A stretch of 64,000 nucleotides of DNA. It comes from Arcobacter sp. CECT 8983. GTDB lineage: Bacteria > Campylobacterota > Campylobacteria > Campylobacterales > Arcobacteraceae. A program made the position numbers and the translations under genes. Each line of letters opens with the position of its first letter. Position 1 is the stretch's first letter. Where the stretch lies: contig NZ_PDKF01000007.1 of NCBI RefSeq assembly GCF_004118855.1, forward strand, positions 1 to 64,000, read 5' to 3'. Below are positions 1 to 12,619 of the stretch, in pieces. The notes beneath the pieces are model-generated. The model was not told where the DNA came from, searched no databases, and was given only the letters and a program-made list of their open reading frames with translations.

Positions 1-785
1 TCATCTTCTACTGTTCCATTGTTAAATGTAAAGTCATACTCTTTTGCAGCTTCTGCTTCTCCACTTAATGTTACAGTGTGAACTAAAGAAGTTCCTTCTG
101 TTTGTGTATCACTTGTTACACTTGATACTTCTATATCTTCTTCATTTGCTTGAGGATCATCTGTAGTAGTTGCAGTTTCATCATCATTATTAGTAGTTCC
201 TTCAACATCAACTAAATTTCCATCTGGATCATTAAACTCTAGCCCAGTTCCTCTTCCTTCTGCTCCATAAGTGTTTCCACTAATAGCCTCTGATGCAAAA
301 AATGTAGATGCACCGTTTGAAGTTGATTCACCTGCTGCAGCTGCTTCTAACTGTTCTGCTAATGAACCGAAATCATCTATTATAATTCCATTTTGATTTG
401 TGCTACCATCTGTTTGAGCAAGCAAATCTTTTAATTCTCTAATAATATTATCACTTTTAAATTCAGGGTTTAATACTGTTTGATTAAGTTCATCCATACC
501 TTCTTGGTCATTTATAATTCCAAGTACAGATTTATTTTCAGTTAGTAAGCTAGATTCTTTAATTAATTTTGCCATATCTTCAAATTTAAACTTATATTTT
601 TGTCCATCTTTATTGAACAAAATTTCAATAGAGTCTTCCCCATCACTTAAGTTAAACTTGTATTTTTTGGCATCTAAATTCTCAAAGTAAAACTGTTGTC
701 CTGGTTCTGGTTTAATAACCATTCCATCCGTTAATTCTCTAACTTCTTTTGAACCATCTACATTTTTAATTATCACTTTAATCAT
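1..785 (-). CDS. Large type I-secreted adhesin, N-terminal part (cut by window edge)
   Basis: The frame is open from an ATG at 783-785 to the window edge, giving the first 261 residues. There is no Sec signal peptide. Residues 1-140 form a compact, lysine-rich region resembling the N-terminal retention modules of LapA-type adhesins. An alanine stretch follows (residues 148-152, AAAAG) that contains the AAG core cut by LapG-type proteases, then a Gly/Ser-rich stretch and an acidic Thr/Asp/Glu linker (about 195-220). From residue 220 a beta-rich segment begins that looks like the first of the repeated Ig/cadherin-like domains of such adhesins. The neighbouring type I exporter genes at 2986-8174 support export as its route. 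The C-terminal secretion signal and calcium-binding repeats lie outside the window, so the adhesin call is inferred. Confidence 0.75.
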   Translation of the reverse strand, partial: MIKVIIKNVDGSKEVRELTDGMVIKPEPGQQFYFENLDAKKYKFNLSDGEDSIEILFNKDGQKYKFKFEDMAKLIKESSLLTENKSVLGIINDQEGMDELNQTVLNPEFKSDNIIRELKDLLAQTDGSTNQNGIIIDDFGSLAEQLEAAAAGESTSNGASTFFASEAISGNTYGAEGRGTGLEFNDPDGNLVDVEGTTNNDDETATTTDDPQANEEDIEVSSVTSDTQTEGTSLVHTVTLSGEAEAAKEYDFTFNNGTVED

Positions 786-1711: not shown

Positions 1712-2977
1712 TTATTTAATCTCTATTTTAAACTCTACTCTTCTTGATAACTCAGGATTTTCAGAACCATCACTATTTAATATTAACTCTTTTGAAGATT
1801 TACCTACTGCTTTAAAAGTATTATCTATAAAACTTTCATTTTCAATAACTATAGAATCTAAGCTTGTTTTTAAATACTCTAAAACTGCATCTGCTCTTTC
1901 TTGTGATAGAGCCATATTTTTACTAAATTTTTCTTCTTCTGATTTAGCACTACTATAAGCTGATGATGTATGACCTTCTACATAAACATTTTTTATAGAA
2001 TTTTTATATTCAACTAAAGCAGCTATATATCTAGGGAAGAAATCCGATAAAATATTTTTGTACTCTTGCTTAAGATTATTACTTCCTCTTTCAAACATTA
2101 AAGAAGGGTTATTAAATCTAAATATTAATCTATTTTCATCAAAAGAAGCATTCCATTTTGCGAAATCATTTTCAAACTCTTTTTTTAATAATGCAGGTAA
2201 ACTATTGATTGCTTTTATCTCTAGTTCTTCAGAGGTAAGACCCTTTTCATTAATTGAATTTACAGAAATTGCATCAACTCTATAATAACCATTTAAAAGT
2301 TTTTCTTCTACTTGTGCACACCATCTTTTCCCTAAAATATTAGCTTCTATTACACTTTCTCCTGAATCAAATGAAATTTGAATTCTTCTTACATCCTCAT
2401 CATAGATATCTCCACAAATATTTGGCGTATTATCAGTTAATATTCCGTATTCATCTATTGAGATTTGATTATAAAATTGTGTATTTGTAGTTTTTTTAGG
2501 AGTTATTACTTTGCCAATACATTCTTGTTGAATATTCTTTGAACTAAGTAATTTTGCTGTTCTATTATCATTTAATTCTCTCGCATACTCATAAACAGAA
2601 ACACCCTTTTCATCTTTTGCATTTATTTTTGCACCATTACATATTAGAAGTTCTGACATAAAAGTATAACCTTTTTTTACAGAATCAATTAAAGGTGTAT
2701 CAAAATAATTGTCTTTTGTATTTATTTGGGCACCCTTTGATATAAGAACTTTTGCTATATCAAAATGATTAAATCTTGCAGCAATATGTAAAGGGGTATA
2801 ACCATATTCATCTTTTGTATCTATATTCTCTTTATTAAGTAATTCATTTAATAACATCATATCATTTACTCTAACAGCGTAGTGTAAATCTTTTTCAACA
2901 GGTGAGCCTGTATTTTTAGTTGCACAACCTGCAAAAACACTTAGTATAAAAACTAAACTAAAAAAATATTTATTCAT
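1712..2977 (-). CDS. Lipoprotein with ankyrin repeats and C-terminal OmpA-like domain
   Basis: The N-terminus has a lipoprotein signal with lipobox FAGC (Cys18). Residues 30-150 hold three to four ankyrin repeats (for example GYTPLHIAARFNH), followed by an unassigned middle region. The C-terminal 110 residues form an OmpA-like peptidoglycan-binding domain (motif GHTSS, then SQERADAVLEYLK). OmpA-type lipoproteins often accompany type I adhesin exporters and could anchor the outer-membrane part to the wall. The gene sits 8 bases after the adaptor gene in the same operon. Ankyrin repeats in an exported OmpA protein are unusual and may mediate protein contacts in the periplasm. The ribosome-binding site AAGGAA supports the start. 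Confidence 0.85.
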   Translation of the reverse strand: MNKYFFSLVFILSVFAGCATKNTGSPVEKDLHYAVRVNDMMLLNELLNKENIDTKDEYGYTPLHIAARFNHFDIAKVLISKGAQINTKDNYFDTPLIDSVKKGYTFMSELLICNGAKINAKDEKGVSVYEYARELNDNRTAKLLSSKNIQQECIGKVITPKKTTNTQFYNQISIDEYGILTDNTPNICGDIYDEDVRRIQISFDSGESVIEANILGKRWCAQVEEKLLNGYYRVDAISVNSINEKGLTSEELEIKAINSLPALLKKEFENDFAKWNASFDENRLIFRFNNPSLMFERGSNNLKQEYKNILSDFFPRYIAALVEYKNSIKNVYVEGHTSSAYSSAKSEEEKFSKNMALSQERADAVLEYLKTSLDSIVIENESFIDNTFKAVGKSSKELILNSDGSENPELSRRVEFKIEIK

Positions 2978-2985
2978 TTTTTTCC

Positions 2986-4368
2986 TTATCTTTCATGTAA
3001 AGCATTTTGCTTTACTTTTAATATTGGTTTTAATATAAAGTCAAGTATTGTCTTTTTACCAGTAATAATATCAACAGAAGCCACCATACCTGGAATAATT
3101 GGTAGTTTCTCACCATTACGTTCTAAATAATTCTTCTCTGTTCTTACAATAACTCTATAATAACTTTTACCCTCTTTTGATTCCTTATCTACAATACTAT
3201 CAGCAGAGATTTCTGTGATTTTTGCATCTAATCCACCATAAATTGAAAAATCATAGGCAGTTATTTTTACAATTGCTTTTTGACTAGGATTAATAAAAGC
3301 AATATCTTTAGGATCAATCTTTGCTTCAACTAATAAAATATCACTTTGAGGAACTATTTCAACTAAATCTACCCCTGGTTGGATTACTCCACCTATTGTA
3401 TTAAAATATAACTGCTTCACTATTCCATCTACTGGCGAAACAATAGTTGTTTTAGCAACTTTATCTTTATCTCCCACTAATCTTGCTTCAAATTTACTAA
3501 TTAATCCAACAGTTTCTTGTAAAGTATTTGAAGCTTCCGCTCTAAAATTATTTAATTTTTCAGATACTCTACTTTTTGCTTCTTGTATCGCTAGTTCAGA
3601 CCTTTTTACAGATAATAAAGCTGTTTCTAATTCAGAACTTACATCTGTATACTCTTTTTCTATATTTAAAAGTTCATATTTAGACTTAACCCCTCTTCTT
3701 ACAAGCTTATGAATTGTTTCCCTTTGTTCTTTTATAAGGGCAAAACTTTTTTTAAGATTCTTAATAGTATTTTTTATTTCAGTTAATTCTTGTCTTTTTT
3801 GTGCAAGTTGAGTTTCCAAAACATCTACTGATGATTTTAACTCTTCATATCTATTAGCTAAAAGAGTCTGTTCCAATCTATCATAACCTGATTTATCTTC
3901 TAATACTTCTTTAGGAAACTCCAAAATAGGAACTGGTTTTGTTAAGTCTAAAGTAGCTTCAGCTTCAAGTCTTTGTTTAACTGCTAATAAACTAATATAC
4001 TCTTGCTTACTCTCTTCTAATGTTGCTTGAAATCTTGTTGTATCAATTTTCATTAAAGGAGTGCCTTTTTTCACTGACTCACCATCTTTTACTAGAATTT
4101 CTGAAATAATACCTCCATCAAGAGACTGAACTCTTTGAATTTTATCTGAAGGAATAACTTTACCATTTCCTCTTGCTAACTCATCAATCTCTGCAAATGC
4201 TGACCAAAGAATGACTAAAGTAAAAAAAGAAATTATAAATATAAAAGTTAGATTTGCCACTTTACTAGGTGTCTCATTTGCATTTGCATAACTTGAATAG
4301 ACAAACTCTAAATCTTCATCAGGACTTTTATCAAGACCATAAAGCTTATTAAACCATTTTTTTATCAT
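2986..4368 (-). CDS. Type I secretion periplasmic adaptor, HlyD/LapC family
   Basis: The 460-residue protein has one N-terminal membrane helix (about 40-60) after a short cytoplasmic segment. A lipoyl/beta-barrel half (about 75-115, motif VKDGESVKKGTPLM) leads to a long alpha-helical hairpin (about 135-300), and the second lipoyl half and beta-barrel run to the C-terminus (motif IVSPVDGIVKQL). This is the standard architecture and length of HlyD-type adaptors that link the ABC exporter to TolC. Its ATG overlaps the stop codon of the exporter gene (ATGA), so the two are translationally coupled. The likely cargo is the adhesin starting at 785. Confidence 0.92.
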   Translation of the reverse strand: MIKKWFNKLYGLDKSPDEDLEFVYSSYANANETPSKVANLTFIFIISFFTLVILWSAFAEIDELARGNGKVIPSDKIQRVQSLDGGIISEILVKDGESVKKGTPLMKIDTTRFQATLEESKQEYISLLAVKQRLEAEATLDLTKPVPILEFPKEVLEDKSGYDRLEQTLLANRYEELKSSVDVLETQLAQKRQELTEIKNTIKNLKKSFALIKEQRETIHKLVRRGVKSKYELLNIEKEYTDVSSELETALLSVKRSELAIQEAKSRVSEKLNNFRAEASNTLQETVGLISKFEARLVGDKDKVAKTTIVSPVDGIVKQLYFNTIGGVIQPGVDLVEIVPQSDILLVEAKIDPKDIAFINPSQKAIVKITAYDFSIYGGLDAKITEISADSIVDKESKEGKSYYRVIVRTEKNYLERNGEKLPIIPGMVASVDIITGKKTILDFILKPILKVKQNALHER

Positions 4369-6521
4369 TGTTTTGCACCTTTTGGTTTATTAAAAACTTC
4401 TTCTTTAGGACCATCAAAAGCAATCTGCCCATTTTCCACAATAATAACTCTATTTACTAAATGAAGCAATGAAGTTTTATGAGTAACTATAATTAATGTT
4501 TTGTCATGGATAATTTTTTCTATTTTTCTAATAAATGCTTGTTCTGTTTGTTTATCCATTGAGTTCGTTGGCTCATCAAGCATTAGAATATTTGGATTGG
4601 AAATTAATGCTCTTGCTAAAGTAACTGACTGTCTCTCACCTCCACTTAAACCTTCACCTCGTTCTCCTACCATCAAATCAAAACCAGCTTCATGTTTTCC
4701 TAAAAAGTCATCGAGTCCTGCAACTTTTGATACCTTTAAAAGCTCTTCATCGGATACATATTGTTCTCCAATTGTTATATTATCTTTTATTGTTCCCATA
4801 AATAAAAAAGGCTCTTGGGGTACACAACCTATTGCTCTTCTTAAATCAACTGGATCAATTTGTCTTGTATCTAAATCATCAACTAAAACAGAACCAGTAG
4901 TTGGTTCATAAAGATTCATAATAAGTTTAAGAAGTGTTGACTTTCCAGAACCAATTTTCCCTAATATAGCAACCTTCTCTCCAGGTTTTATACTTAGGTT
5001 TATATTTTTAAGAGTTTGATGATTTTGTTCTTTGTATGCAAAGTTTACATCTTTTAATTCAATTTTACCTTTTAATATAGGTCTACTGATATATGTTTTA
5101 TTCTCTTTTTCTACTGGCATTTTCATAACTTCATCTAAGTTACTTAATGAAAGCATTGTTTTATCAAACTTTATAATAAGTCCTACCAATTGAGAAACAG
5201 GAGCAATTACTCTTCCATTTAAAATCATAGCTGCAATAATAGCACCCATTGTAATATCACCTTCACTTGCAAGATAAACTCCCCCTGCAACAATTGCAAT
5301 ATTTGAAAACTGTGAAATAAAAGCAGTAAAATAAGTAATACTTTGAGATAGAAAATGCCCTTTATCTGCATAATGAACTGTTTTATTTACTGAATTATCC
5401 CAGTTAGTTCTCATTCTATTTTGAGCTCTTACACTTTTAATAATTTCTAAACCAGTAACTGTTTCAATCATTGTTGTTTGTTTTATTTGCTCTTCTTTTA
5501 CAGATTTTTCAATTATCTCTTTTAATGGTCTTTGCATATACCAAGAAACAAGAATTGAAATAATTACTGTAAAGATAGTAATATAAGCCAATGGTCCTGC
5601 GATATAAAAAACAACTATTATAAAGATAATAACAAAAGGGAAATCAACAAAAGCAGCTACTGTAGCACTTGTAAAAAACTCTCTCACGCTTTCAAAAGAT
5701 TGTAGCCTACTTACAAATTGTCCAGTAGAGGCTGGTTTTGAGTTTATTTTTATATTTAATACATGATTAAAAATTTTATTTGAAATAATAGTATCTGTTC
5801 TTTTACTTGCAACCCCTAAAAAATAGGATCTTAAAACTTTTAAAACAAAATCAAAAAGCATTACAATACTAATACCAATAAACAATGCCCACATAGTTTC
5901 AATTGCATTATTAGGTAAAACTCTATCATAAACATTCATTGTAAACAATGGTGTAGCTAAGATGAATAAATTAATAAATAAAGAAACCAAAATAACTTGT
6001 TTGTAAATATTTTTATTTCTAAATAAAGTTCCCCAGAACCATTTTTGAGGGCTATCTACTTGTATTTCTTTTTCTATTCTATTATTAAAATTAAATTCTG
6101 GTTTTAAAATAATCAATTCACCTAAATATTCAGAATTTAATTTTTCTAAAGTCATTTCTGTTTCACCAGAACTAAGACCAGGAAGAATTACTTTTGCTAT
6201 TCCTTCTTTCTCATCATAATCAAGTAAAACACATGATCTATCTTTTTCAAGCAAAAGCACAGCAGGAAGAGCAAGCTTTGTAAGTTTTGTTATTTCTCTT
6301 TTAACAACTTTACTTGTAAGTCCAATTCTTTTTGCAGCATCAATAAACATATCTAAATCTAACGATTTATTATGAACTGGAAGATTAAATTTCAAAGATT
6401 CTGCTGAGGCTTCTCTTTTATGATATTTTGATAAAAATATCAAGCACTCTAAAAGTGTATCAACAGTTCTTCTGTCCTTGAGGGTATTTAGACTTTCATC
6501 TAATTTTTCTTTTTCTTGCAA
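4365..6521 (-). CDS. Type I secretion ABC transporter, permease/ATPase (LapB/LssB family)
   Basis: The 718-residue protein has an N-terminal C39-peptidase-like domain (about 20-145) without an evident catalytic Cys-His pair, as in the non-cleaving LapB/LssB exporters. The ABC membrane domain follows with about six helices (170-450), then the ATPase: Walker A GKIGSGKST, signature LSGGERQS, Walker B NILMLDEP and the switch His in IVTHK. A proteolytically inactive N-terminal domain is thought to hold unfolded RTX-type cargo. The start is TTG at 6519-6521, preceded by an AAGG ribosome-binding site. It lies 30 bases after the TolC-like gene and overlaps the adaptor gene, so all three are one operon. 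Confidence 0.93.
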   Translation of the reverse strand: MQEKEKLDESLNTLKDRRTVDTLLECLIFLSKYHKREASAESLKFNLPVHNKSLDLDMFIDAAKRIGLTSKVVKREITKLTKLALPAVLLLEKDRSCVLLDYDEKEGIAKVILPGLSSGETEMTLEKLNSEYLGELIILKPEFNFNNRIEKEIQVDSPQKWFWGTLFRNKNIYKQVILVSLFINLFILATPLFTMNVYDRVLPNNAIETMWALFIGISIVMLFDFVLKVLRSYFLGVASKRTDTIISNKIFNHVLNIKINSKPASTGQFVSRLQSFESVREFFTSATVAAFVDFPFVIIFIIVVFYIAGPLAYITIFTVIISILVSWYMQRPLKEIIEKSVKEEQIKQTTMIETVTGLEIIKSVRAQNRMRTNWDNSVNKTVHYADKGHFLSQSITYFTAFISQFSNIAIVAGGVYLASEGDITMGAIIAAMILNGRVIAPVSQLVGLIIKFDKTMLSLSNLDEVMKMPVEKENKTYISRPILKGKIELKDVNFAYKEQNHQTLKNINLSIKPGEKVAILGKIGSGKSTLLKLIMNLYEPTTGSVLVDDLDTRQIDPVDLRRAIGCVPQEPFLFMGTIKDNITIGEQYVSDEELLKVSKVAGLDDFLGKHEAGFDLMVGERGEGLSGGERQSVTLARALISNPNILMLDEPTNSMDKQTEQAFIRKIEKIIHDKTLIIVTHKTSLLHLVNRVIIVENGQIAFDGPKEEVFNKPKGAKQ

Positions 6522-6551: not shown

Positions 6552-8174
6552 TTAGATTTTATTTATATTATCAATATATGCCTTATTAGACAATACAAGA
6601 GTAGAGTTTAAACTAATTATTTTATCTTTAGGTATATTTAAAAAGCTATCTAATTTATCTTCTAAATTATCATTTTTATTTAAAATATCATTTGTTTTTC
6701 CATCTAATTCTAACTCTCTTTTTAAATCAAGATTTAATTCTTTTCTAATTAATTCACTGTCTGTATCACTAATTAAACCTTCAAGTTCTTTTTCAATATT
6801 ATTATTTTGTTTTTTAGGTTTATAATTAATTATTCTTGGAGCAATATTTGCACAATCTTGATTTTTTGAATTCACTACTGAGTTTGTTAGGTTTGATAAG
6901 TTAAACATCAAGTCATAATAATTGTTTATTAAAGCGTATTCAACTTCTATTAACGTTTTTGTTGATTCATAAAGTTCTCTTTCTGCATCTAAAATATCAA
7001 CAAAAGTTCTTGTACCTGCTTGAAATTCACTTCTATATACATCTACAATATTTACATTTGCTTTTACATATTTTTTTAGCTCTTCAATTCTTCTTTTATA
7101 TGTATCATGTTTCCCATATAAAGATTTTATTTCTGCAACAATTTCTTGAGTAATATCATCTAAAGTTTTCTTTTGTTCTTCTAAGAAAGTTTTTTCTTGA
7201 GTCGAAGTTACATTATTTTTATTACCATTAAATAAATTCCAATTAAAATTCAACCTAATATATTTTTCATCTGTTCTACCATTTTCAGTTAATTCTAAAT
7301 CTTCATCAATTGAAGCTTTTAACTCTAAATCTATTTTTGGTAAAAATGATGCGTTCGCTTGTGCAATTTTTTCTCTTTGCATTTTTATTTTTTCTATTTG
7401 TTCTAATATTCTATAATTACTAGCAACCGCTTTTTTTATAGCTTCTTCTAAATTTTTTGGGATTTTAGTTTCATCAATAGCTGGTCTACATGTTTTACTA
7501 GTAGGATTTTCACCCACTAATTTAAAATACTTAGCTAATGTTGTATCTTTTTTATCTTCTTCATCAATATATCTATCTCTTATAAAATGCAGTTTTGAAG
7601 ATACTTGATATGTTTCTAAAACTTCTCCACTAATACTTTCTTGTTCTTTTGCTATAGCTAAATTATCTTCATTTATTTTTATCATAGACTCAGTTAACGT
7701 TAATACTTCATCTGATTGAACTAAGCCTGTGTAAGCTTTAATTGTTTCTAAAACTGTGTTTTCAATTGCATAAAAACTTCTGTGTTTATTTGCTAAATCT
7801 TGATATTTCGTTTGTGCAACTTCAGAAGGAGTCAATCCTCCATCATATATATATTGTCTTAAAACAATTGCTGCACTATAACCATCTTGATCAGTCCATT
7901 CACCATCAGTAGCTGTTTTATTTATATCTCTTTTTTCTCTTTCACTTCCCTTTTGAAAATATGATTCTATATCTAATGTAGGTAAATAATTGCCTCTTCT
8001 TTCATCAACATACATTTTATATGCTTCTTGATTCTTTCTTTCAGCTATAACATTTGGATTTGTACTTAAAACTTTTTCAACACTATCTTTTAAACTAGTT
8101 GCACAAAGAGATGTCACTGATAGATACAAAAACAAACTCAAAAAAATCATTTTTATGCTATTGTTAGATTTCAT
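6552..8174 (-). CDS. TolC-family outer membrane channel of the type I exporter
   Basis: The 540-residue protein has a signal peptide (about 1-25, ending SLCA). Two outer-membrane-efflux-protein repeats span about residues 28-420, rich in long helices typical of TolC (for example the YxDLMFNLSNL region near the second repeat). After residue 430 comes a charged C-terminal extension of roughly 110 residues with many Lys, Asp and Asn, which is not part of the usual TolC core. It is the first gene of the exporter operon. The ribosome-binding site AAGGAAAG and the TATAAT at 8218-8223 support the start. The partner adaptor and exporter follow downstream. Confidence 0.9.
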   Translation of the reverse strand: MKSNNSIKMIFLSLFLYLSVTSLCATSLKDSVEKVLSTNPNVIAERKNQEAYKMYVDERRGNYLPTLDIESYFQKGSEREKRDINKTATDGEWTDQDGYSAAIVLRQYIYDGGLTPSEVAQTKYQDLANKHRSFYAIENTVLETIKAYTGLVQSDEVLTLTESMIKINEDNLAIAKEQESISGEVLETYQVSSKLHFIRDRYIDEEDKKDTTLAKYFKLVGENPTSKTCRPAIDETKIPKNLEEAIKKAVASNYRILEQIEKIKMQREKIAQANASFLPKIDLELKASIDEDLELTENGRTDEKYIRLNFNWNLFNGNKNNVTSTQEKTFLEEQKKTLDDITQEIVAEIKSLYGKHDTYKRRIEELKKYVKANVNIVDVYRSEFQAGTRTFVDILDAERELYESTKTLIEVEYALINNYYDLMFNLSNLTNSVVNSKNQDCANIAPRIINYKPKKQNNNIEKELEGLISDTDSELIRKELNLDLKRELELDGKTNDILNKNDNLEDKLDSFLNIPKDKIISLNSTLVLSNKAYIDNINKI

Positions 8175-8263: not shown

Positions 8264-8983
8264 ATGGAAAATTACATAAATAATAAAAAAAGTGTTAAAA
8301 TTATTAAAGAACACTTAAATATTCTTTATATTGAAGATGAAAGAAATATAAGAGAAAAGTTAAAAGAGGCTATAAAGCTTATTGTATCGAATGTTTATGA
8401 TTGTGAAGACATTTCTCAAGCAAAAGAGATTTTAGATAAACATAGAATTGACATAATAATTTCTGACATTAATTTAAAGAATGAAAATGCCTTAGAATTT
8501 ATAAAAAATATAAGAAAATATTATTTAAATTTACCTATTATTTTATTATCAGCATACACTGAAAAAAATTATTTATTAGAAGCAGCAAAACTAAAACTTG
8601 TTGATTATTTAGTAAAACCCATTGATTTTAAAATATTAAATAATACTATAGATAAAGCTGCACAGGAGCTTATTCAATACGGAAATTACATTGTTGATTT
8701 TGAAAATAAAACATCTTATAATATTCTTAATAAGAAATTATTATCTAAAGAAACCAAGAAAGACATTATATTAACAGCAAAAGAGATAGAATTGCTTGAA
8801 TATTTTATTTCTAACAGTAATAGAGTCCTTTCCCATGATGAAATAAAAAATAAACTTTGGATAGATTCTTATGAAATTACAGACTCTGCACTTAAAAACT
8901 TAATTAATAAACTAAGAAAAAAAATAGGGAAAGAGTCAATAAAGAATATTTCAGGAGTTGGATTTAAAATAGAATTGATTTAA
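8264..8983 (+). CDS. OmpR-type response regulator beside the exporter operon
   Basis: The 239-residue protein has a receiver domain (about 17-130) with the acidic pair Glu24/Asp25, phospho-acceptor Asp68 (IIISDIN), Thr/Ser region LLSAYT and Lys118 (VKP). A winged-helix DNA-binding domain follows (about 150-239, ALKNLINKLRKK recognition helix region). It is transcribed away from the exporter operon with overlapping -10 boxes, so it may autoregulate and control the adhesin exporter. Its 3' end overlaps that of the convergent PilZ-type regulator gene by 4 bases. No kinase is co-transcribed. The ribosome-binding site is weak. Confidence 0.9.
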   Translation: MENYINNKKSVKIIKEHLNILYIEDERNIREKLKEAIKLIVSNVYDCEDISQAKEILDKHRIDIIISDINLKNENALEFIKNIRKYYLNLPIILLSAYTEKNYLLEAAKLKLVDYLVKPIDFKILNNTIDKAAQELIQYGNYIVDFENKTSYNILNKKLLSKETKKDIILTAKEIELLEYFISNSNRVLSHDEIKNKLWIDSYEITDSALKNLINKLRKKIGKESIKNISGVGFKIELI

Positions 8984-10089
8984 AATTTCAATTTTTTAAA
9001 CTCTTTAATTAAAAATAACTGCCGTTGATAAATATATTTTTCTAAAATCTTTCTATCCCCAAAAGACAATTCATATATAAAAACTATTTTACTATAATCA
9101 TTATTGATTTCTTTAATTTTATGAACTAAAGCTTTGAAGGCTAATCTTTCTTTATGAACAATTATATTTTCAAAGGAAGCTTCATGTTCTGTTTTAAAAC
9201 CTATTACAATATCTACCTTATCTCCTAACCTTAACTTATTAGTTATATTTTTAGCAATAAAAGAAATAGAGGAAGAAGAAATAGACTCTACTTTATAACT
9301 ATATCTTTCACTATTAGCAAAAATTGATCCATTAAATGTCTCATCAGGATCGACTCGTACAGTTTTTCTATTCTTTGAACTAGTTTCAACTTGAACTAAA
9401 TCCTTTAAACAAACAATATTGCTAAGTTCATCATAGCTTTCAAGTTTAGCATTTAGAATTTTATTTTCAATATGTATTGTTGTCTTTTTTTCATATCTTA
9501 TAGCTTTTATCTGTACATTTTCTGTTTTTATTCTTATTCTATCTTTTTCAATATTTATAATAGAAGCATCGTGAATAAAAGGAATTCCTTTATAATGGTT
9601 AATTAGTTCAATTTTATTATTGTTTAGTTTAGAGTCATAAAGCTCTTTAAATAAATCATCTTCAATTGATTCTTCATCACTATTTTCTATCTTTTCAATT
9701 GAACACAATAAAGAAGAAATTAAAGTATCGTAGTTTACTGGTTTTTGTATAAACTCATTTATTCCAAGTTTTTTAAACTTCATTATATTCTCTTCATAAG
9801 CATGAGCAGATATTATCACTACTTGTGCATGAGGGCTAAATTCTAATAATTTTGCAATAAATTCATGTCCATCCATTTGAGGCATTGTTAAATCAGTTAA
9901 AACTAAATCTGGTAAACTTTTCTTAAAAATTTCTAAACCAACTAAACCATTGTCAGCTACATAAACTTCTTTAAAAAGTTTACCCACAAAATTTTTCATC
10001 TGCTTTTGAATATGCTTACTATCTTCTACTATTAAAACACTATATTCACTTGCTTTATTTTTTAGTTTCATTAATTCAGACAATTTCAC
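8980..10089 (-). CDS. Response regulator with PilZ-like C-terminal domain
   Basis: The 369-residue protein has a receiver domain (about 15-130: Glu22/Asp23, phospho-acceptor Asp66, Lys116). A stretch of about 80 residues (165-238) follows that resembles the YcgR-type N-terminal beta domain. Then comes a PilZ-like domain (about 239-350) with the arginine motif RKTVR (241-245) and, 24 residues on, ESISSSSISF in place of the usual DxSxxG. The Arg motif is the c-di-GMP-contacting part of PilZ; the second motif is degenerate. It overlaps the upstream kinase gene, so the pair is probably a cognate system. The start is ambiguous: GTG at 10089 touches the AAGGGG ribosome-binding site, while TTG at 10083 is better spaced. 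Confidence 0.8.
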   Translation of the reverse strand: MKLSELMKLKNKASEYSVLIVEDSKHIQKQMKNFVGKLFKEVYVADNGLVGLEIFKKSLPDLVLTDLTMPQMDGHEFIAKLLEFSPHAQVVIISAHAYEENIMKFKKLGINEFIQKPVNYDTLISSLLCSIEKIENSDEESIEDDLFKELYDSKLNNNKIELINHYKGIPFIHDASIINIEKDRIRIKTENVQIKAIRYEKKTTIHIENKILNAKLESYDELSNIVCLKDLVQVETSSKNRKTVRVDPDETFNGSIFANSERYSYKVESISSSSISFIAKNITNKLRLGDKVDIVIGFKTEHEASFENIIVHKERLAFKALVHKIKEINNDYSKIVFIYELSFGDRKILEKYIYQRQLFLIKEFKKLKF

Positions 10090-12619
10090 CCCTTAATACT
10101 ATTTCAAAGCAAGCACCAAAATTTTGATTATATGCTTTAATTTTACCTTCTAGATGTTTTTCTACAATAATCTTCGACATATAAAGCCCTAAACCTGTAC
10201 CCTCAAGCTCATCTTTTGTAGTAAAATATGGTTCGAAAATATTATTTATAATCTCTTCAGGTATTCCTCCTGCATTATCACATATTTTTATTATGATATT
10301 TTCACCATCTAAATACTCATAAACATCTATTCTTTTGTGCTCTATGTCTCTTTGAACTAAAACTTCTTTTGCATTTTTTAAAATATTTATAATTACTTGT
10401 AAAAACTCTTTTTCAAAACTATTAACTTTTTTACCTGATGTAAACTCTTTCTTTACTTCAATATTGTTATTTTCTAAAGTTTTACCCATAACAGAAATTG
10501 CATCTTTAAATACATCTTCTACAAAAAAGCTCTCTTTTTGTTTATTTGGTTTAAAAAAGTTCCTAAAATCTTCAATTGTTTGAGATAAGTATTGTGTTTG
10601 AGATATTATGTCTTGTGCATTTTCTTCTAATGCTTCTTTATCTATCATATCAAGATCTATATCCATTAAAATATTGTTTGCACTCATTGCTACAACAGAG
10701 ATTGGTTGTCTCCATTGATGAGCAATCATACTTATCATTTCACCCATTGCAGCATGTCTTGATTGTGCAATCATTAGTTCTTCTTTATCTTTTAATTCTT
10801 CTTGTAGTTTTAGCTCTTTTGTTATCTCTTGTTTGATTGCCATATAGTTAATGATTTTTTTATCTTTTTTAGAAAAAATTGGGAAAATTATAGCTCTTTC
10901 CCAAAACTCTTTTTTATTTTTACTGATATTTCTAAAAACTCCACTCCACGTTTTTCCAGAAGAGATTGTTTGCCATAAATTATCATATTCCTCTTCATCC
11001 ATAGTATCTGATTGTAAAACATCAATATTTTTACCTGTAATTTCAGAAAAACTATATCCACTTACTTTAGTAAAGTGAGAATTTACATACTCAACCTCAC
11101 CTTTTTTATTTGTAATAACAAAAGAGATAGGAGCTTGCTCTACTGCTTGTCGTAAAATAGAAAGTTCATTTTGGATCAATGCAAACTCAGTAATATCTTG
11201 AATAGTACCTATTACAAGATGAACTTCTTTACTTTTATCTTTTTTAAACTCTATATTACAATTAACATGTCTTACTTCTTTATCTGATTGTCTTATGATT
11301 CTATACTCTGTTCGATATCCTCTTTTTTTGTATTTACCTAAAAAGAATCTTTTTACCACATTTTCTCTATCTTCTTCATGGGTAAAGTTTTTAACTAAAT
11401 CTTCAAGGGTGATTTTTGTTTCATTGGCTAAACCAAAAACAGATTTAATATTTTTTGATAGAGTTAAAGTATTAGTTTTAAAGTCATATCTAAAGTGCCC
11501 TAAATTTGACATTTTCTCAGCTTTTAGAAGATTTTTCTCACTTGTCTTTAAATTAACTTCTAACTCTTTTTGCTTTGTAATATCAGTATGAAAACCAACC
11601 ATTCTAATTGCATTTCCATTTTTATCAAAGATAGTCTTACCTCTATCTAAAATCCAAACCCAATGCCCATCTTTATGTTTTAATCTATGTACATTTTCAT
11701 AATATGTAGTTCTTCCTCTATGATTTGCTTTTATATCACTTATAGCTGATTCTATGTCGTCAGGATGAACTAGCTTTTTCCATGTTTCTAATGAATTTGC
11801 TAATTCATTTTCTTTATAACCAAGCATCCCTTTCCATATTTTTGAAAAATAGACTTTATTTGAACTTAAATCCCAATCCCACAAACCATCATTTGAACCA
11901 TTTATTGCATGCTCATATCTTTGTGATAATACTCTATTCTTATCTGAGATTCTCATTATTATTCTATGTTTTTTATAAATATTATTTACAAAATAAATCA
12001 ATACTAAAAATACTATTAAAGAAATAAAGAAACTAAATAACATATAGTAATCTCTTTTTTTATTTGCATTTATATAGAACTCTTGATAATCGCTTGTATT
12101 TAAAGTAACTCTAATTCCACCTCTTATATCTCCAATTTTATATCCTTGAGAAGAGTGGCAATCTAAACATGCTCTTGTTACAGTCAATGAAGCCATATAT
12201 TTTAATTTATTTCTATTTTTGTTAAATTCAAAAAACTCTGTTTTATCTTTCTTTTCAAACTCTTTTAAAACTTTCTTCTCAAAATAATTAGGTTTATTTC
12301 CTTCATTACTTGGGTTTAAACTAGTTATCTTATAACTTTGAATATTGCTTCTACTTGAAAGGTCAAAAATCTGTTTTGTCATACTTATAGGACTAATTAT
12401 TGAATAATCTTCATCTTCTTTAATGTAAACCCCATTATTTGTTGTATTCCACATTTTAATTGTAAGAAAACTAGTAAAACTATTTCTTGCTTCTTTTAAT
12501 ATATTATTTTCATAAATTTTGATTTGATTTGATATTGAAAAGTTTATATAATAAACTTGTAAAAGAAAAGCAAATATAACAACAGTAATAGTAAGTAAAA
12601 CAGCTTTAGTTTGATTCAT
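10076..12619 (-). CDS. Membrane histidine kinase with periplasmic CxxCH (haem) sensor and PAS domains
   Basis: The 847-residue protein has a first membrane helix (about 7-26) and a periplasmic domain (30-190) with CLDCH at 151-155, the c-type haem attachment motif of the DUF3365/Tll0287-like sensor family. A second helix (about 192-214) leads to three PAS/PAC repeats (roughly 225-350, 360-480, 485-610). The HQWRQPI kinase box and the ATPase domain (DNAGGI, GTGLG) complete it. A covalently bound haem would suit sensing of redox state, oxygen or NO; this is inferred from the family. The gene overlaps the receiver-PilZ gene by 14 bases, so that regulator is the likely partner. Confidence 0.88.
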   Translation of the reverse strand: MNQTKAVLLTITVVIFAFLLQVYYINFSISNQIKIYENNILKEARNSFTSFLTIKMWNTTNNGVYIKEDEDYSIISPISMTKQIFDLSSRSNIQSYKITSLNPSNEGNKPNYFEKKVLKEFEKKDKTEFFEFNKNRNKLKYMASLTVTRACLDCHSSQGYKIGDIRGGIRVTLNTSDYQEFYINANKKRDYYMLFSFFISLIVFLVLIYFVNNIYKKHRIIMRISDKNRVLSQRYEHAINGSNDGLWDWDLSSNKVYFSKIWKGMLGYKENELANSLETWKKLVHPDDIESAISDIKANHRGRTTYYENVHRLKHKDGHWVWILDRGKTIFDKNGNAIRMVGFHTDITKQKELEVNLKTSEKNLLKAEKMSNLGHFRYDFKTNTLTLSKNIKSVFGLANETKITLEDLVKNFTHEEDRENVVKRFFLGKYKKRGYRTEYRIIRQSDKEVRHVNCNIEFKKDKSKEVHLVIGTIQDITEFALIQNELSILRQAVEQAPISFVITNKKGEVEYVNSHFTKVSGYSFSEITGKNIDVLQSDTMDEEEYDNLWQTISSGKTWSGVFRNISKNKKEFWERAIIFPIFSKKDKKIINYMAIKQEITKELKLQEELKDKEELMIAQSRHAAMGEMISMIAHQWRQPISVVAMSANNILMDIDLDMIDKEALEENAQDIISQTQYLSQTIEDFRNFFKPNKQKESFFVEDVFKDAISVMGKTLENNNIEVKKEFTSGKKVNSFEKEFLQVIINILKNAKEVLVQRDIEHKRIDVYEYLDGENIIIKICDNAGGIPEEIINNIFEPYFTTKDELEGTGLGLYMSKIIVEKHLEGKIKAYNQNFGACFEIVLRGEIV

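Follow-up and report, generated by a model that had tools for sequence, protein, structure and literature searches.

The window, that is, the whole stretch of DNA analysed here (64,000 nucleotides of Arcobacter sp. CECT 8983; assembly GCF_004118855.1, contig NZ_PDKF01000007.1, positions 1 to 64,000), carries a response regulator gene together with genes for a sensor kinase and a type I exporter. The features were located as follows (evidence in parentheses; residues are numbered on the encoded protein).

3..785, (-): putative large adhesin, N-terminal part, cut by the contig edge (reading frame, conservation in congeners)
2986..4368, (-): HlyD-type adaptor (TIGR01843 above cut-off)
4365..6521, (-): LssB-type exporter permease/ATPase (TIGR03375 above cut-off)
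6552..8174, (-): TolC-family outer-membrane protein of a type I exporter (Pfam; TIGR01844 below cut-off)
8264..8983, (+): OmpR-type response regulator, between the two units, convergent with the PilZ-like regulator and divergent from the TolC gene (Pfam)
8980..10089, (-): response regulator of 369 aa with a receiver, a conserved middle domain and a PilZ-like domain (ORF, GTG start)
8983..9381, (-): PilZ-like domain with C-terminal helix, residues 237-369 (profile matches of relatives, family profile, model)
8992..9054, (-): C-terminal helix with family-conserved R356 and E363 (low-confidence models, alignment)
9268..9285, (-): SISSSS, residues 269-274, at the place of (D/N)xSxxG (alignment)
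9355..9369, (-): RKTVR, residues 241-245, the PilZ RxxxR motif, kept (sequence, alignment)
9382..9621, (-): conserved domain of an unnamed family, residues 157-236 (alignment; beta-rich in a low-confidence model)
9712..10038, (-): receiver domain, residues 18-126 (Pfam Response_reg, PF00072, E 4.3e-24)
10076..12619, (-): sensor histidine kinase with Tll0287-like domain, PAS repeats, HisKA and HATPase (Pfam)
12155..12169, (-): CLDCH (CxxCH), c-type haem attachment motif at kinase residue 151 (sequence)

The kinase gene lies upstream of the regulator gene, which it overlaps by 14 bp at its 3′ end. The initial annotation had read the regulator as a receiver followed by an output region with the PilZ arginine motif, and both were recovered: the receiver was complete, and RKTVR was found at residues 241-245, the very numbering that had been given. 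The receiver-site residues E22, D23, D66 (phospho-acceptor), S94 and K116 were all present in the window protein. Among 19 full-length receiver rows, which take in the window's own row and in which L002 and L031 are identical sequences, E22 was kept in 18, D23 in 17, D66 in 18 (E in the remaining one), and S94 and K116 in all 19. With this conserved site, the receiver is phosphorylation-competent. A recognisable DNA-binding domain was absent from the response regulator in scans with Pfam and NCBIfam, and nothing credible was obtained for its output half from Pfam (E up to 10), NCBIfam or PHROGs.

The Pfam PilZ model (PF07238) gave no match to the window protein at E ≤ 10, so that its gathering cut-off was missed, and none in a search of the whole genome of the strain. 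Several relatives of the regulator scored above this cut-off. A search of 150 genomes of the phylum with PF07238 matched 45, of which 42 were over the cut-off, and among the matches listed there were some inside stretches that were also matched by A1, a profile built from 19 output regions, all of receiver-fused rows and the window's own included (e.g., in G107, G109, G141, G153, and G157); the A1 match G141:C2:224121-224717, for instance, contains a PF07238 match at 224382-224678. In total, 89 distinct output regions were collected and 81 of them aligned (A3), with seven near-copies judged by eye (L075, L117, L121, L123, L124, L132, and L135) and one fragment (L089) left out. PF07238 matched 48 of the 81 A3 rows at E ≤ 0.01; as 13 rows had entered the alignment through PF07238 itself, these are not independent, and at least 35 of the other 68 match. 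When the A3 profile was compared with the PDB, the best match was YpfA/MotI (5vx6, E 2.1e-7), over the PilZ half; those to VCA0042 (0.02) and PlzA (0.5) were without significance.

A template-free AlphaFold model of residues 157-369, calculated from two sequences, was of low confidence (pLDDT 40.6), as was that of the full-length protein from two sequences (pLDDT 36.4). With the former model, Foldseek placed the PilZ entry 4xrn first (probability 0.99, E 0.04) and a phage coat protein second; further PilZ entries were interspersed with unrelated ones, and E ≤ 0.001 was reached by none. In VIA-align, ranks 1-19 were occupied by PilZ-family proteins or their complexes (Z 4.9-7.0), mostly covering model residues ~90-213; MrkH, BcsA, 5y4r, and PA0012 are counted here among the PilZ entries. 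From rank 20 on, unrelated proteins entered the list at Z 4.8, level with the lower-scoring PilZ entries, and a VIA-align Z under 8 may reflect no more than a common arrangement. PilZ entries thus head both rankings of the predicted structure, at the low confidence of the model. Sequence evidence and model taken together make a PilZ relation of the output half (residues ~237-369) very likely. PilZ domains ordinarily serve as receptors of the second messenger c-di-GMP. The PilZ-like output read from the window is upheld by family profiles and model, and the window protein itself is missed by Pfam and NCBIfam.

Between receiver and PilZ half, the initial annotation had placed a stretch resembling the N-domain of YcgR. 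A conserved region of about 80 residues does exist there, with N164, Y166, K167, and G168 (N-x-Y-K-G) and Q193 as conserved positions, and its position and size would suit a YcgR-like N-domain. YcgR or PilZ-N Pfam families were not among the matches of the 81 A3 rows at E ≤ 0.01, and a 45-row profile of the domain found no relevant chain in the PDB, the single row being a ribosomal protein (E 0.99); the YcgR label is therefore unproven.

The RxxxR pattern by itself proves nothing, because shuffling the C-terminal 213 amino acids yields it in 36% of cases. In the A3 rows (own included), R241 was R in 73/81 and R245 in 74/81, and both were kept in 69/81 (56/68 without the PF07238-fetched rows); few positions of the family are better conserved. 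The second motif, already described as degenerate, is S269-x-S271-x-x-S274 in place of (D/N)xSxxG, the D/N and the G being lost; S271 was S in 78 of the 81 rows and is hence family-conserved.

By profile, 48 of the 81 A3 rows carry a receiver and 33 do not, the latter including L053, which runs off its contig. The full (D/N)xSxxG was kept in 5 of the 48 receiver-bearing rows versus 22 of the 33 others, or 9 of 20 others once the 13 PF07238-fetched rows were set aside; the last figure is the fairer one, since retrieval was with PF07238 and the motif is present in every one of those 13. RxxxR was kept in 38/48 receiver-bearing rows versus 31/33 others (18/20 without the PF07238-fetched rows). 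These motif losses are not independent events, because the rows are akin to each other; on the tree, no fewer than six changes along well-supported branches are required for the state of bearing a receiver and having lost RxxxR. The deep division of receiver-bearing rows from the rest was weakly supported (72/70), so a single origin of the receiver-PilZ fusion is not claimed. Both ends of the range occur among receiver-fused relatives: in the congeners L005 and L006 both arginines are gone and kinase (loci L143 and L144) and receiver are retained, and L012, with a kinase of the same kind (L150), has both motifs intact.

When the protein was searched against 104 genomes of the family, its full-length relatives ranged in identity from 88% to ~25%. 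The A1 profile matched 26 of these 104 genomes at E ≤ 0.001 (one match was merely a broken fragment) and 147 of 397 genomes of the phylum at E ≤ 0.01, in 39 of 68 genera. Within the genus, A3 gave a strong match in 6 of 16 genomes, one copy each; the remaining 10 had two marginal matches (E 0.02 and 0.08) and, in eight, none. No other PilZ protein was found in the window's genome by PF07238 and A3 searches. On plasmids, nothing matched the output domain of the one relative used as query, and the three matches on viral contigs (L164-L166) were set aside as they look like chance: stops interrupt the matched frame, and the profile did not hit them.

Several other architectures were observed along with this distribution. 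In a set of Campylobacterota proteins of 350-390 aa (L095-L099, L101-L103, L105, L109, L114-L116, L118-L120, L122, L125-L128, and L133), the PilZ motif is intact and PilZ is preceded by a domain of ~150 residues, helical by eye, for which Pfam gave no name in the three tested (L095, L098, and L101); a hidden receiver in this N-terminal domain was unsupported (hhalign probability 0.5%). In receiver-PilZ proteins of ~500 aa, the middle segment was considered as a second receiver and rejected, because the hhalign match was limited to 29 residues at the very end of the receiver (44%). The same output module is preceded by ~420 residues in proteins of ~620-640 aa (L087, L088, and L090-L094; no Pfam match to these residues in L087, the one tested), and it stands C-terminally in a GGDEF protein of 668 aa (L104:1023-3026, (+)), a cyclase fused to a PilZ-like domain.

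The kinase next to the regulator had been called haem-type, and this was confirmed by a Tll0287-like sensor domain (PF11845, E 3.1e-15) and the CLDCH motif. For comparison, the surroundings of 20 relatives in 17 genomes were taken, up to ~19 kb and less at contig ends; the window's genus contributed five of these loci, and the neighbours were annotated in part. In 11 of the 20 loci (L140-L146, L149, L150, L151, and L154), a same-strand frame with both a kinase H-box pattern and CxxCH lies no more than 16 bp from the regulator. PF11845 was confirmed in the adjoining kinase of L145, L146, L150, L151, and L154, in addition to the window's own, and was not reported for that of L149 at E ≤ 1e-6. 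A CxxCH kinase was not detected beside the gene in the other nine loci, of which two give no verdict: in L147 the contig ends within the kinase gene, and in L152 the adjoining frame has CxxCH and kinase similarity, with unread bases hiding the H-box region. In L148 and L153 a kinase lacking CxxCH lies at a distance of ~400 bp, no kinase was found by the H-box pattern within 5 kb in L155-L158, and in L159 a kinase lies 3.5 kb away and a receiver-EAL protein adjoins the regulator gene instead. The regulator is paired more consistently with the haem-type kinase than with the adhesin exporter. On the other flank of the receiver-PilZ gene, an HDOD-domain gene was seen in three loci (L150:10618-11454, L151:10455-11300, and L154:10544-11338).

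Among known systems, YpfA/MotI (DgrA) of Bacillus subtilis is the best profile match in the PDB and was also second in the structure ranking (Z 6.6, rmsd 3.5, 99 residues); unlike the window protein, it has an intact second motif, NISAGG, and no receiver was matched in it. MotI is described as a c-di-GMP-dependent clutch of the flagellum. The PilZ half likewise resembles that of Escherichia coli YcgR (5y6g, Z 6.2, rmsd 4.0, 108 residues), in which a further domain also precedes the PilZ half, its relatedness to the window's middle domain being without support from Pfam or the PDB; there is no receiver in YcgR. YcgR acts when bound to c-di-GMP, according to PMC12943098. The same paper describes a tetrameric PilZ protein of C. 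jejuni (Chen et al. 2025) that lacks the motif and yet contacts the flagellar motor, which is a precedent for PilZ output without c-di-GMP. Compared by this description, it is like the window protein as a PilZ protein of the same phylum that lacks the canonical motif, and unlike it in having two extra helices and forming tetramers, with no receiver mentioned in that description (PMC12943098).

On this basis, the regulator is rather likely to be a PilZ-fold effector that is fed by the kinase, controlled by phosphorylation and acts by protein contact; such a phosphorylation-first effector is preferred because of the action of MotI and YcgR on the motor and because the motif-lacking C. jejuni PilZ protein contacts the motor. 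With its periplasmic c-type haem domain, the haem-type kinase would sense a gas or the redox state and would pass a phosphoryl group to D66 of the receiver. Phosphorylation, which is probably the main input, might then re-orient the two-domain output, consisting of the middle domain and the PilZ-like domain with its C-terminal helix, so that it could bind another protein, as YcgR and MotI do on the flagellar motor. By analogy with these two, the motor may be the target; a flagellar gene was not seen beside the regulator in the partly annotated neighbours of the 20 loci. Dependence on c-di-GMP appears to have been lost in the window protein. Since R241 and R245 rank with the best-conserved residues of the family, the retained RxxxR may yet bind a phosphate-rich ligand or, weakly, c-di-GMP.

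The initial annotation had instead taken the protein to join two-component and c-di-GMP signalling, the PilZ-like domain binding c-di-GMP through R241/R245 and combining this signal with phosphorylation. In favour of such an integrator, both arginines are kept in 69 of the 81 rows, the receiver-fused L012 keeps both motifs in full together with the same kind of kinase, and, with 41 GGDEF matches in the window's genome and no other PilZ protein found, a receptor would be useful. Against this stand the loss of D/N and G here, the missing full second motif in 43 of the 48 receiver-bearing rows, and L005 and L006, which do without both arginines yet have kinase and receiver; moreover, the family profile has no convincing match in 10 of the genus's 16 genomes, so c-di-GMP signalling there is independent of the family. 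A true integrator is accordingly regarded as possible and rather doubtful.

The regulator had also been set beside an adhesin system. In the window, the exporter genes are followed by genes for an ankyrin-OmpA protein and a small kinase and then by the reading frame cut at the contig edge. No family model matched this putative adhesin fragment (3-785); its frame is conserved in three congeners, whose contigs likewise end inside the gene, as is expected for a long, repetitive gene, and the longer piece in one congener carries DUF5801 repeats. Its layout and an AAAG stretch resemble the retention module of LapA-type adhesins. The ankyrin-OmpA protein (window 1712-2977, (-); ankyrin repeats and an OmpA domain) matched Zorya ZorB2 (1e-39, 136.8 of 400 bits, below the cut-off), a match that probably concerns the OmpA part only.

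The exporter was seen next to the regulator in 4 of the 20 relatives, all of the same genus (L140, L141, L143, which is cut by a contig end, and L144); in the remaining 16 loci, among them L147 and L152 with short flanks, it was not found there. In L142, which holds a 72%-identical orthologue, the exporter and the OmpR-type regulator were both not found and the kinase pair stays; there the ankyrin-OmpA gene is followed by a 1037-aa Mur-ligase-domain protein and a 736-aa protein (L142:2251-7585, (-)), the latter without a Pfam match at E ≤ 1e-6. The adhesin-system setting therefore stands for the window, where a type I exporter (TIGR03375) and an adhesin-like frame do lie nearby, and the link is local. 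The regulator/kinase and exporter units probably share no transcript because of the opposite-strand OmpR-type gene between them, and the likely target of this OmpR-type regulator is the exporter operon from which its gene diverges. That the PilZ-like regulator acts directly on the neighbouring exporter, as a cytoplasmic substitute for LapD, is suggested by the adjacency and by the presence of exporter genes with an adhesin-like frame; given the 16 loci without the exporter, among them the orthologue that keeps its kinase, the intervening OmpR-type gene that is missing together with the exporter in L142, and the location of the genome's three LapG-type proteases on other contigs, we consider it improbable. 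It is harder still to credit that the C-terminal region is a non-PilZ small beta-barrel with RxxxR by chance, for although the protein itself has no Pfam match, the pattern is common in shuffles and the model is of low confidence, the PF07238 matches of relatives, the profile match to 5vx6 and the Foldseek and VIA-align rankings all speak for PilZ.

PilZ has been listed among response-regulator output domains in earlier censuses. An Anaeromyxobacter response regulator, Anae109_3862, is described in PMC4603909 as having gained or lost an N-terminal PilZ domain, so the combination of receiver and PilZ is not new; by that description it differs from the window protein in the N-terminal place of PilZ. 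Within open-licence literature, in titles and the beginnings of abstracts, no published description of a receiver-PilZ family of this kind was found. New here are an output that Pfam does not see, a second motif that is often lost in receiver fusions, and a haem-type kinase that recurs as partner.

A PilZ-type output is missed here by the standard libraries, and 41 GGDEF matches in one genome stand against the printed statement, in PMC12943098 with citation of Chen et al. 2025, that Campylobacterota lack GGDEF domains and c-di-GMP. The conserved haem-type kinase can be named as the likely input of the PilZ-like regulator. Since the family spans proteins from intact to lost ligand motifs, it offers a natural series for phosphorylation replacing c-di-GMP as the switch. 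We tentatively suggest, as a possibility, that receivers of Campylobacterota took over the PilZ fold, with phosphorylation, by the haem kinase in this branch, in place of the c-di-GMP trigger. If so, redox or gas state would act directly on the motor or another machine of the cell surface, without a second messenger or transcription.
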